Positions 40,806-43,995 of a stretch of 64,000 bases of DNA are shown piece by piece. Made by a program: the position numbers and the translations under genes. The first letter of the stretch is position 1; every line of letters begins with the position of its first letter. Origin of the DNA: Pectobacterium wasabiae CFBP 3304 (lineage in GTDB: Bacteria; Pseudomonadota; Gammaproteobacteria; Enterobacterales; Enterobacteriaceae); assembly GCF_001742185.1 (NCBI RefSeq), contig NZ_CP015750.1:4154001-4218000 (forward strand), written 5' to 3'. A model generated the notes under the pieces. It worked only from the letters and a program-made list of their open reading frames with translations. It ran no database searches and had not been told where the DNA came from.

Positions 40806-41093
40806 TTAACTCTTATTTTTGCGGCTATTAGCCCATGGATCAACAACGCCATCATCTAGTTTTGCGGGCGCGGCCTCATTCAGAGAATCAAGATACAGCG
40901 CTTCGACCTCAGCGCGAGCCCACGGTGTTCGGCGTAGAAATTTTAAACTGGACTTCACGCTTGGATCGTTTTTAAAGCAATTGATGTTGATCTGTCTACC
41001 TAGCTCAACCCAGCCAAAACGGGCAACCAGCGCATTAACTTGCATTTCAAGTGTCACGCCATGTAAAGGGTCTTTAGAAATATGTGTAGCCAT
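40806..41093 (-). CDS. VF530 family DNA-binding-fold protein (DUF2132)
   Basis: 95-residue protein matching the VF530/DUF2132 family: [56 protein letters not shown] (40900-41000) and LYLDSL. The Vibrio fischeri homologue has a solved helical structure, but the function is unknown. Ends 5 bp before digH, same strand. Confidence 0.92.
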
Positions 41094-41657
41094 GTAGTAG
41101 AAGTCCGGTAATTTCAGATTTTAACACAGGAAGGTTACAAGAAAGCTGGGCGAGCGGCAATGTTATGCGACGGTGTGAGGATGACAATATTGGTAACAAT
41201 ACGCAGGATTACATGCATTATAATATTAAAACCAGACTATCGTAATGGATATTAAATATCAGATCGTTCAACGTGAATTGAGTTTCTTTCATATGTTCTA
41301 CTATTTTAGAAATTACTTAGATAAAAATAATAAATTAAGGTTTCTTTGAAAAAAAAGAATAAATCTAGCAGAACTATCAACGAAAACATTAAGACCATTC
41401 TCAATAAAAAAAGGCCATATCGTTTTTTTGATTGAGGTTCTACATATAGAACTTAATGCTTGCCATTTCATTAGCAATCATTTAAACCAGATGACGAAAT
41501 GTTGTTGGTTATTATTTTACAGAACATTTCAGCTCACATGGAGCGATTGATATCACTTTTGTCAGGCAGTGCTTTCTACATTACAAAAGTCACTGACAAT
41601 AAGTGATTCATGAATAATAAAACCACATAAAATAACCGTAAAGAGAGGGATGGAATA
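41094..41657. other. Long AT-rich intergenic region upstream of the Gly-rich cluster
   Basis: 564 bp with markedly lower GC than its neighbours and no credible reading frame. It contains poly-A and poly-T runs and must include the promoter of the Gly-rich genes; their first ribosome-binding site (agagaggga) sits at 41642-41650. AT-richness suggests H-NS-type silencing and horizontal origin. Confidence 0.6.
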
Positions 41658-41981
41658 ATGAAGTTAACACCGATAATAGCCTTTTTAGGATTATTCAGTA
41701 TCGCAAGTGTACATGCCAACAACGATACATCCCACAATGTTACTCATGACAAAACCGATTTATTGACATTGGTCAGTAATGGAGATGCGTCAGGGGGAGC
41801 CGGTGGGAATGGTGGCAGTGGGAATAATTCGCCAGGTGGAAAGGGCGGTGATGGTGGTAATAACAGCAATAGTGGGAATGGGAACGGTAACGGAAATAAC
41901 AACGGAACAGGAAATGGCAGCGGTAGCGGAAACAGCACGGGGGGGAATAGCGGTAGTAAAGGAGGGAAAAACTCAGCTTAA
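41658..41981 (+). CDS. Exported Gly/Asn/Ser-rich repeat protein 1
   Basis: 107-residue protein with a signal peptide (MKLTPIIAFLGLFSIASVHA-NN) and a short ordinary segment to about residue 42. The rest, to the C-terminus, is low complexity and almost entirely Gly, Asn and Ser: [19 protein letters not shown], then many GN, GNG and GSG units. The glycine spacing of three per turn is that expected of polyglycine-II helices. First of three tandem genes of this kind. Good ribosome-binding site. No homologue recognised; function unknown. Confidence 0.75.
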   Translation: MKLTPIIAFLGLFSIASVHANNDTSHNVTHDKTDLLTLVSNGDASGGAGGNGGSGNNSPGGKGGDGGNNSNSGNGNGNGNNNGTGNGSGSGNSTGGNSGSKGGKNSA

Positions 41982-41995
41982 CCTTTAATACTTAA

Positions 41996-42026
41996 AGGGT
42001 TACGAGCAATCTCACGCCGTAACCCT
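41996..42026 (+). terminator. Hairpin between Gly-rich genes 1 and 2
   Basis: Perfect 9-bp stem agggttacg / cgtaaccct with a 13-nt loop, without a U-tract; probably a partial terminator or mRNA-stabilising element that sets relative expression. Confidence 0.5.
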
Positions 42027-42053
42027 CGTCATATCCTTAATATTAGAGGTAAT

Positions 42054-42689
42054 ATGAAAAAAAAATTATTGTTATTACTAACAATTCCATTCGTATCATT
42101 CGCAACAGCTTCCCCTATCAATTTTATGGAGGCTCAATTTCAAGAAATTAGCGCTAATGGGGGAGCTGGAGGCAATGGGGGTTCTGGCGATAACTCTCCC
42201 GGAGGAAATGGTGGAAAGGGTGGAAAGGGAAGTAATGGTGGAAATGGCGGTAATGGTGGAAGTACGGACAATTCACCAGGGTGTAACGGTACGGATGGTA
42301 AAAATGGGACAAATGGAACAAATGGAACAAATGGGGAAAATGGAACAAATGGAAATTGTTTGAATTTTAAAGATATGAACCTCACGCCGATATCCAAAGG
42401 GGGGAACGGTGGAAATGGCGGTGCCGGAACTAATGCAGGAAATGGTGGCGACGGAGGTAATGCCGGTACAGGAAATAACTCACCGGGAGGAAATGGTGGG
42501 AATGGTGGAAAAAATGGGGCAGACGGCGGGAATGGCGGCCAAGGTGGAAATGGAAATAACTCGGCAGGAGGAAATGGAGGCCATGGCGGGAATGGGAATA
42601 ATGCAAATGGTGGCCCCGGCGGAACAGGAGGCAGCGGAAGCAATTCTCCTGGTGGCAACGGCGGTAATGGCGGAAATAACATTACATAA
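42054..42689 (+). CDS. Exported Gly/Asn-rich repeat protein 2
   Basis: 211-residue protein with a signal peptide ending near FATA-SP and a short linker to residue 34. Two long Gly-triplet blocks follow (about 35-95 and 120-211). The blocks are built of GGNGG/GGKGG units punctuated by NNSPGG-like turns that recur every 17-30 residues. Between them lies a collagen-like NGT repeat ([15 protein letters not shown]) flanked by the only two cysteines, which could close a disulfide loop. Ribosome-binding site agagg. No known family recognised. Confidence 0.8.
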
Positions 42690-42713
42690 TGAATCAACAC
42701 ATCGGTGACCTTT

Positions 42714-43073
42714 ATGAAAAACAAAATATTATCCGTGTCTTTATCCGGCATTCTCTGTTTTTCCGTATTAGCTTCGACGCCCATATCCAACTCAGCGTAT
42801 GCTCAAAATGGAGGCAATGGAGGTAATGCAACAGGACATGATAGTGGAGGAAATGGCGGTAATGCTGGCTCTGGTTCGAATGGAAATGGCGGGAATGGGG
42901 GGAAAGGCGGTGACAATGGGGGAAATGGCGGTAAGGGCGGGAGCGGTGCAGGAAGTGGAAATGGAGGCCGCGGCGGTGATGCCGGCTGGGGTGGCGGAGC
43001 CGGCGGGAAAGGAGGGAAAGGTGGAGATAATGGAGGGAAAAACGGAATGGATGGAATGAGTTCAGCCAGGTAA
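42714..43073 (+). CDS. Exported Gly-rich repeat protein 3
   Basis: About 119-residue protein starting MKNKILSVSLSGILCFSVLAS, with signal cleavage near AYA-QN. An uninterrupted Gly-triplet region follows (GGNGGNATGHDSGGNGGN, then [17 protein letters not shown]) with more Lys, Arg and Asp than the other two, ending in NGMDGMSSAR. ATG 42714 is preferred over an in-frame GTG at 42705; cggtga may serve as ribosome-binding site. It follows gene 2 by 24 bp, so co-transcription is likely. Confidence 0.72.
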   Translation: MKNKILSVSLSGILCFSVLASTPISNSAYAQNGGNGGNATGHDSGGNGGNAGSGSNGNGGNGGKGGDNGGNGGKGGSGAGSGNGGRGGDAGWGGGAGGKGGKGGDNGGKNGMDGMSSAR

Positions 43074-43389
43074 CACTCGACTGGCCCCATAGATCACCGG
43101 ACATTTCAGCGCTCTAAAAATAAGGGGGAGTCTGAGAGGCTAGGGGCCAGTGTTGAGCCGGGCTGGAAGATGTTTATTACCGACAACGGAATTAGCTCTC
43201 CCCCTCAGGCAATGTGAACGTATAGTTATCCTGCATATCGATATGCCCGTACATCAGTGGGGATAACTGAGCGATATTCTCACTCCAATATCTTCTCCAC
43301 TACCAGAATTCAGGGTGAAAAAAACATTTCTCATCATGGGGTTATTTAGCGCACAATTGATTAATTTATGATTCCAGGAAAACAGATTA
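43074..43389. other. Intergenic region after the Gly-rich cluster
   Basis: 316 bp without a supported gene. An imperfect long inverted repeat (agggggag near 43123 and ctccccct near 43198) is visible. The right end carries the ynbA leader. Nothing else identified. Confidence 0.5.
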
Positions 43390-43995
43390 ATGACGCTTTA
43401 TCAGGTAAAGCCTGCTTTTCAGGCGCTTTTGCGCCCATTCATGTTCTGGCTGCACAAATACCGCGTTACTGCTAACCACATCACGTTCGCGGCGATGGTT
43501 CTCTCTTTTATCACTGGCGCAGTGTTGATGATTTTCCCCCGTCCAAGTCTGTTTGTTCTGCTCCCCATTGTGCTGTTTGTGCGTATGGCGCTTAATGCGT
43601 TGGATGGCATGCTGGCACGCGAATGCAACCAAAAGTCGCGTCTCGGCGCCATTCTCAATGAGACCGGCGATGTGCTTTCCGATATCGCGCTCTACCTGCC
43701 TTTTATGCTGTTGCCATACAGCAATGCGCCGCTGGTTCTGGTCATGGTATTCTGTGCGGCAATGACCGAATTTTGTGGTGTGCTGGCGCAAACCATCAAT
43801 GGTGTACGCAGCTATGCCGGACCATTGGGAAAAAGTGACAGGGCGCTGGCATTCGGCGCTTGGGGACTGGCTCTGGCCATCTGGCCGCAGTTTGTGCAAT
43901 GGAATAATGTTGTCTGGGGGATAGCCACAGTATTGCTGCTGTGGACGATCATCAACCGTTGCCGTAGCGCATTATGTGATGAGGTGGCGAAATAA
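43390..43995 (+). CDS. ynbA: YnbA-like CDP-alcohol phosphatidyltransferase family protein
   Basis: 201-residue integral membrane protein of the CDP-alcohol phosphatidyltransferase family with five or six helices. The signature D-x2-DG-x2-AR-x8-G-x3-D-x3-D is recognisable as NALDGMLARECNQKSRLG followed by AILNETGD. The first and third aspartates are Asn, leaving only two of the four metal or base residues. Orthology to E. coli ynbA is supported by the adjacent ynbC and ynbD homologues, but ynbB (CDP-diglyceride synthase-like) is absent. Activity therefore needs testing. Confidence 0.9.
   Translation: MTLYQVKPAFQALLRPFMFWLHKYRVTANHITFAAMVLSFITGAVLMIFPRPSLFVLLPIVLFVRMALNALDGMLARECNQKSRLGAILNETGDVLSDIALYLPFMLLPYSNAPLVLVMVFCAAMTEFCGVLAQTINGVRSYAGPLGKSDRALAFGAWGLALAIWPQFVQWNNVVWGIATVLLLWTIINRCRSALCDEVAK

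Follow-up and report, generated by a model that had tools for sequence, protein, structure and literature searches.

The three tandem genes at positions 41658 to 43073 of the window, the 64,000-nucleotide stretch of Pectobacterium wasabiae CFBP 3304 analyzed here, are real genes that are kept in a conserved order, co-inherited and held under purifying selection. Read from their sequences, they represent one operon type made up of four families, A to D, recognized at loci across Pantoea, Erwinia and the genome G250; the first gene of the window corresponds to A, the second to a fusion of B and C, and the third to D. This self-contained operon quite possibly encodes a matrix or surface structure that is exported, hydrophilic and built of several Gly-triplet subunits. 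The original prediction had proposed three exported genes forming one extracellular or envelope structure of polyglycine-II type; its observations were partly confirmed and its interpretation partly supported, and the system is larger and more widespread than it supposed.

Gene A (41658..41981, plus strand) is an ORF of 107 aa whose residues 1-20 resemble a signal peptide, probably cut after VHA, and whose mature part is rich in Gly and Asn, with a GGSGNNSPGGKGGDGGNN core followed by a GN-dipeptide tail. A spacer of 72 nt separates it from gene BC on the same strand (42054..42689; 211 aa, signal peptide-like residues 1-19), the first half of which is B-like and the second C-like, and 24 nt further lies gene D (42714..43073, plus strand), comprised of 119 aa from its ATG with signal peptide-like residues 1-30, or of 122 aa from an alternative GTG start 9 nt upstream. 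Each gene is preceded by a ribosome-binding-like site and opens with a hydrophobic, signal peptide-like N-terminus according to our hydropathy rule, in agreement with the three consecutive genes of 107, 211 and about 119 codons, each with its own signal peptide, that had been reported earlier. Also seen as described were NNSPGG-type breaks in genes A and BC and, in gene BC, an (NGT)n loop bounded by Cys77 and Cys102 (42282..42359, plus strand).

An AT-rich leader or control region (41094..41657, plus strand) separates gene A from a divergent VF530 family gene (40806..41093, minus strand), identified by Pfam and placed outside the unit. The 450 bp upstream of gene A have a GC content of 29%, bearing out the long AT-rich region that had been described, and the corresponding segments of 16 other loci have 27-37%. 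Downstream, a CDP-alcohol phosphatidyltransferase gene (43390..43995, plus strand), likewise outside the unit, heads a row of genes. Five flanking proteins were scanned with Pfam, namely VF530 and GHL10 on one side and the CDP-alcohol phosphatidyltransferase, a hydrolase/methyltransferase and a PAP2/phosphatase protein on the other, and none was a modification enzyme, protease or transporter, as had been stated. Proteins A, BC and D themselves have no Pfam family at E 0.001 and no match among the Pfam, NCBIfam or PHROGs models. A long Pro-rich antisense ORF at 42140-42790 is most likely a by-product of the Gly codons, since the low dN/dS of homologues in the sense frame marks the sense strand as the coding one.

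After likely cleavage, Gly accounts for 32% (A), 40% (BC) and 51% (D) of the residues, with Asn the next commonest, and the GRAVY values of the three chains lie between -1.15 and -1.26. The three-residue Gly periodicity originally ascribed to all three genes was examined by counting G..G pairs at lag 3 against 5000 composition shuffles, and it stands for two of them. Gene BC has 57 such pairs against 30.2 expected, a count reached by 0/5000 shuffles, and gene D has 31 against 21.8 (p 0.0004), whereas the 11 pairs of gene A do not exceed its shuffles (8.5 expected, p 0.16); here the pattern is triplet-like only where the Gly region begins, the remainder being a GN/GS dipeptide repeat. By our own parse, triplet runs number 3-9 in gene BC (3-5 in its C half), 3 and 8 in gene D, and 3-4 in gene A. 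The 3-5-triplet runs of the C half of gene BC alternate with breaks of 1-4 residues, several of the NNSP type, that shift the register. Hydrophobic residues at X after GG are scarce (1/8 in A, 2/29 in BC, 1/17 in D and 0-2 in every homologue listed). Across the proteins listed, the Gly parts carry net charges anywhere from +5 to -14, which indicates that no single surface chemistry is kept and argues against a cationic antimicrobial.

A further 27 loci were read for this operon type. With the window included, 21 of the 28 are A-B-C-D, three are A-BC-D and four are disrupted; the loci are not independent in that many come from conspecific strains and two pairs (L024/L025 and L031/L082) each from a single strain. 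Locus L067 was counted as A-B-C-D with its C gene, missed by the motif filter, supplied from a separate reading, and L023 as A-BC-D with its BC likewise so taken. The B+C fusion is found in the window, in L023 (G250) and in L035 (P. ananatis PA13); B and C are separate in the other Pantoea and in Erwinia. In Pantoea and Erwinia, the B proteins have an NG-rich loop flanked by Cys, similar to the NGT loop of gene BC, plus His-rich stretches. The Gly-triplet domain of gene D aligns colinearly with the D proteins of G250, Pantoea, Erwinia rhapontici (L064) and the genera g189 and g235, both of which have two-gene forms, and ends in a conserved GGxxGxxG-type C-terminus. Conservation of the NNSP-type breaks, the loop positions and the D C-terminus extends residue by residue across genera. 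Flanking genes differ by lineage, the settings including the chromosome, megaplasmids with the replicon rep_cluster_1232 and smaller plasmids, and strains of one species have their site in common. Among the disrupted loci, L024 has A and B intact with C and D joined as an open fusion, L082 has a frame change in C/D, and in L086 and L087 none of A-D was recognized, a 35-codon C-like scrap being left. The C gene differs in length among strains. Public C/D alleles apparently frame-changed inside the repeat (P0007, P0008, P0009, P0012, P0013 and P0017) may reflect sequencing error, decay or phase variation.

Public plasmid records extend this picture. Two contigs of P. alfalfae (G289), NZ_CP082297 and NZ_CP082293, carry the cluster, a 2,501-base query taken from one contig being 100% identical to the former. 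As a DNA query, the P. alfalfae cluster matched 218 plasmid records, 47 from Pantoea and 163 from Salmonella; the two Salmonella matches listed lie in autotransporter-repeat genes and cover 7% of the query. The window cluster matched 31 plasmid records, all from Pantoea, with a query coverage of 29% for the best of them. Among the Pantoea matches listed (27/47 and 20/31 for the two queries), the annotation beneath the match was "hypothetical protein", the exceptions being a neighboring DsbA-family gene (H1) and two matches without a feature. In the records of L084, L085, L092 and L093 a minus-strand ORF is annotated over D, and Pantoea records often give A, C and D as shorter than the ORFs read. 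Of six proteins retrieved in an initial protein search, four (P0001-P0004) have the second half of gene BC in common and start with an apparent out-of-frame tail of another Gly-rich gene. Further ORFs were seen near some clusters. Two Gly-rich ORFs with signal-like starts lie on the minus strand at 8871-9940 of L034, one of them opposing an annotated plus-strand hypothetical gene; a fifth exported-looking ORF, rich in Gly, Asp and Ser, follows D in the P. alfalfae plasmid cluster (L025, 4987-5313); and a 49-codon ORF like the tail of B (L030, 5527-5676; G250, C26) is apparently the remnant of a second cluster.

Distribution of the cluster is patchy. When 394 genomes of the order were searched by profile, five matched, namely the window genome, G250, G289, G189 and G211. 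Tandem clusters of the A-B-C-D type are present in G250 and G289; the weak matches of G189 and G211 were different or unrecognizable on reading, and these two were rejected as order-level carriers. At the level of the (broad) family, 392 genomes yielded 13 matches to the D profile with E 1e-4 or better, and stretches read from 12 of these (G594 left out) contain signal peptide-like Gly-triplet genes of the A-D type in nine, including the window genome; G680, G675 and G739 were rejected, as no A-D-type genes appeared on reading and the match of G680 was a different protein. At class level, three of 369 genomes matched: the window genome, G878 and G820, the last rejected as a contig-edge match without a Gly-triplet ORF. 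Our Gly filter gave no comparable gene in G189, G675, G739 or G820. In G878 (L080, 4194-10027), three tandem signal peptide-like Gly-triplet genes lie between two paralogous DUF3857/transglutaminase-like proteins, the second of which is followed by a fourth, lipoprotein-like Gly gene; a cross-linking connection with the transglutaminase-like proteins is possible. Scans of genome contigs with the D profile gave 588 pattern stretches, 0 of which were confirmed by tblastn, probably due to low-complexity filtering, and with the A profile 4/86 were confirmed. There was no match in E. coli genomes or in a tblastn search of a Salmonella relative against plasmids, and short DNA matches of 41-102 bases were seen in G014, G006 and G012.

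Within the window's own genus, the intact cluster is present in one of 25 species genomes. The second profile match in the genus, G019, was rejected as another small exported family. That separate exported-looking family, seen in G019 (L022) and in G211 (L013), has 88-92 aa, a short Gly-rich stretch and a conserved tail, GRAGCPGGTDPDxxGxFYLPGTKxQCNPG. The close relative G001 has lost the cluster: its downstream flank is kept at 94-96% identity and its upstream flank, with the leader and the start of A, at 86%; its A is alike for 51 codons and then unrelated to its end; and about 1.5 kb of the window is absent, save for a scrap of some 20-40 bases matching gene BC.

Constraint on the intact copies was assessed from codon alignments by NG86, with pairwise medians taken in groups of 4 and of 8-9 loci whose median dS was 0.28-0.89. 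For A, the median dN/dS of the Gly part was 0.028 in the group of 4 loci and 0.047 in that of 8-9; the corresponding pairs of values were 0.085 and 0.184 in B, 0.035 and 0.159 in C, and 0.042 and 0.062 in D. Medians of the N-terminal part lay between 0.165 and 0.50. The Gly part lies below the N-terminal part in seven of eight comparisons, the exception being B in the larger group (0.165 for the N-terminal part against 0.184). Pairs with dS <=0.02 or saturated were dropped (of the 120 A pairs of the all-loci set, for example, 57 remained), and the medians with all loci pooled (A 0.065, B 0.163, C 0.114, D 0.062) therefore lean on the closer pairs. Alignment of the repeats is a possible source of error in these ratios, the four-locus group being nearly gapless in A, B and D. 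The Gly parts are under strong purifying selection, which implies that intact copies are not drifting. The A and D genes also diverge together, their DNA distances over 14 loci having a Spearman correlation of 0.71 that 0/2000 label permutations equalled. Drift of the repeats with frame disruptions in close relatives had been named as an outcome that would refute the proposal; the result is mixed, as losses and apparent frame changes do occur, yet constraint on the intact copies is clear. A gene order shared with other genera despite differing flanks, the purifying selection and the A/D co-divergence together uphold the claim of one exported multi-gene system.

Between genes A and BC lies a hairpin, AGGGTTACG-13 nt-CGTAACCCT (41996..42026, plus strand), 27 nt before gene BC and without a terminator-type T run (z -6.2, 0/300 shuffles). 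A hairpin occurs between A and the next gene in 14/14 loci tested; its stem measures 6-11 bp and lies 15-27 nt from the start codon that follows. Scored for each locus with 300 dinucleotide shuffles, z was -2.2 to -6.2, and for 14 controls taken immediately upstream of A (200 shuffles each) it was -2.2 to +1.3, the weakest hairpin (-2.2, L032) equaling the lowest control (-2.2, L036). The window stem differs from that of L023 and L035 (GGCCTG/CAGGCC) and from those of Pantoea and Erwinia, which are ACGCGG/CCGCGT, GGTCGCC/GGCGGCC or GCTGCCACA/TGTGGCAGC; in L031 the longest-stem routine chose another helix, and the fold shows the ACGCGG/CCGCGT stem as well. Across these loci, the place and pairing of the hairpin are kept and its sequence is not, with stems near identical within a lineage, so that the loci amount to about five independent cases. 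Folds after A in the g189/g235 loci have z of -2.3 (L059), -1.8 (L061), -2.7 (L062) and -1.9 (L063), and L080 of G878 has no hairpin and no room for one. The hairpin loci comprise the window, L023, L025, L031-L038, L059, L061-L064, L066 and L067. No intrinsic terminator was found in 41094-43400, nothing from Rfam in 41000-43500, and a promoter-like scan was no better than shuffles (5 against 5.5). On the simplest reading, the hairpin would stabilize the mRNA or act as a partial attenuator, with A as the main product, its position after A suggesting that A is made in excess. In clostridia, stoichiometry is described as being set by stem-loops that follow certain genes of an operon at their 3' end (PMC8219983, PMC4423207). 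The clostridial cellulosome operons with selective RNA processing and stabilization share the hairpin after a chosen gene; they differ in that their hairpin sets subunit ratios, whereas here such a role is proposed, and in their proteins and phylum.

Structure prediction did not bear out the claim that the chains form polyglycine-II (PGII) bundles. AlphaFold gave no confident fold for gene BC (mean pLDDT 46.8, pTM 0.23; 14 homologue rows) or gene D (mean pLDDT 44.7, pTM 0.30; 12 homologue rows). A PDB sequence search with gene BC alone returned no match, and no solved PGII protein was found; searches with the C and D profiles returned four and two matches, all low-complexity or linker. A PGII fold is plausible and the most attractive candidate, unconfirmed by these models. 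Springtail bundles are reported to have a signal peptide and 3-4 GX1X2 repeats split by loops of 3-6 residues, with X2 alternating between hydrophobic and hydrophilic from helix to helix to create an ice face (PMC10235112). The present proteins resemble these collembolan (snow-flea) PPII-bundle antifreeze proteins in an exported-looking nature, in GXX/GGX runs with short loops and in the Cys pair that some possess, and the C half of gene BC comes near them with runs of 3-5 triplets and breaks of 1-4 residues, partly shorter than the springtail loops. Unlike them, they belong to a multi-gene bacterial operon, find no match in PDB sequence searches and have almost only polar X residues without a hydrophobic ice face, the point on which the earlier likeness to snow-flea protein fails. 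The mycobacterial PE_PGRS proteins are also bacterial and exported and carry GGA/GGN triplets proposed to form PGII sandwiches and linked to immunomodulation (PMC10216338); the proteins described here lack a PE domain (Pfam), are small, stand-alone tandem products of Gram-negative hosts, and gave no confident AlphaFold model. The T-even-type tail-fiber adhesin of Salmonella phage S16 places Gly-rich PGII helices at its host-recognition tip (PMC8409303), whereas here no phage gene was recognized among the five flanks scanned and no PHROGs family was matched.

The reading favored here is that of an exported multi-subunit Gly-triplet matrix or surface structure, to which we assign a likelihood somewhat short of even. 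It draws on the three tandem signal peptide-like ORFs, the gene set and order shared by other genera, the low dN/dS of the Gly parts, the A/D co-divergence, the hairpin in all 14 A-to-B spaces, the triplet runs and breaks of the C half near the springtail pattern, and the G878 cluster beside transglutaminase-like proteins. Against it stand the lack of a confident AlphaFold model and of overall triplet periodicity in gene A; the absence of the cluster from most relatives searched, its loss in G001 and the frame-changed alleles; the varying charge of the Gly part; and a weakest hairpin z that touches the control, with G878 having no hairpin. All A, BC and D proteins would be exported by Sec, and the hairpin would stabilize or attenuate the transcript such that A becomes the major component, with BC and D as minor components that perhaps nucleate or anchor the structure. 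The mature chains would form short extended helices of 3-4 triplets turned by NNSP-type loops, packed with Gly inside and Asn, Asp, Ser and Lys outside. Backbone hydrogen bonds could join such chains into a hydrated sheet, fiber or matrix at the cell surface or in the extracellular space, with a likely role in plant- or insect-associated life as an attachment, biofilm or water-holding coat.

Hydrophilins are defined by more than 6% Gly and high hydrophilicity, and the composition of these proteins agrees with that definition. The chains might then be exported, disordered, hydrophilin-like Gly/Asn polymers that act as a water-binding hydrogel or a guard against drying without a defined fold. 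Low AlphaFold confidence would suit such chains, as would Pantoea carriers from leaf, seed and soil among others; yet breaks, loop positions and the D C-terminus conserved by residue, with dN/dS down to 0.03, are tighter than a composition-only function predicts, and several distinct subunits come in fixed order, making this account rather unlikely. An improbable alternative is that the proteins are secreted to interact with a plant or insect host, whether as effectors or as surface antigens of the PE_PGRS kind. The Sec-type start, patchy presence, carriers that include plant-associated Pantoea and Erwinia records, and the immunomodulatory ties of PGRS triplets (PMC10216338) speak for it, but Pfam recognized no PE or other known domain, the literature searched gave no host phenotype, and carriers also come from flour, ditch water and soil.

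An unmodified multi-peptide bacteriocin or interbacterial toxin would account for tandem small exported proteins that are patchy and often plasmid-borne. It is nevertheless quite improbable and was rejected, as charge is not conserved and no immunity, export or processing gene was recognized among the five window flanks (Pfam) or in the annotation of eight Pantoea loci, where a small unknown immunity protein might go unrecognized; for L023-L025 and L058-L063 this check covered a list of the ORFs, outside the Pfam scan. Class II microcins likewise differ in that no dedicated exporter or immunity gene was recognized in the cluster here. Ice-binding or antifreeze proteins like those of springtails would share the signal peptide-like start, the short GXX runs with short loops, and a Cys pair in B and gene BC; with X polar nearly throughout and no alternating ice face, this possibility is very improbable and was also rejected. 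Non-functional repeat drift, in which slippage-prone Gly codon arrays stay open by chance, could explain the loss in G001, the apparently frame-changed alleles, the disrupted loci and the variable length of the C gene. It is largely refuted by the selection test, given the low dN/dS at dS of about 0.3-0.9, and sits poorly with the fixed gene order, the A/D co-divergence and a hairpin kept in place, so that it is hardly credible.

Beyond the favored multi-subunit matrix, a bolder and unlikely version may be entertained, in which the operon specifies an undescribed bacterial extracellular polymer, a heteromeric PGII fiber or sheet of several Gly-triplet subunits encoded by one traveling operon, with a subunit ratio set by the hairpin, and overlooked through miscalled low-complexity genes. 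A search of the open-licence PMC literature found no paper describing the A-D genes, and in the records read these are called hypothetical, truncated or placed under an antisense call, a blind spot of annotation. The Gly-triplet proteins of PGII type known so far comprise antifreeze proteins, the tips of phage adhesins and surface antigens of mycobacteria. With a stand-alone, conserved and selected operon of this kind, plant-associated Enterobacterales would offer a new natural test bed for how heteromeric PGII assemblies form, and Pantoea, Erwinia and the genus of the window would gain a candidate for an unrecognized surface structure.
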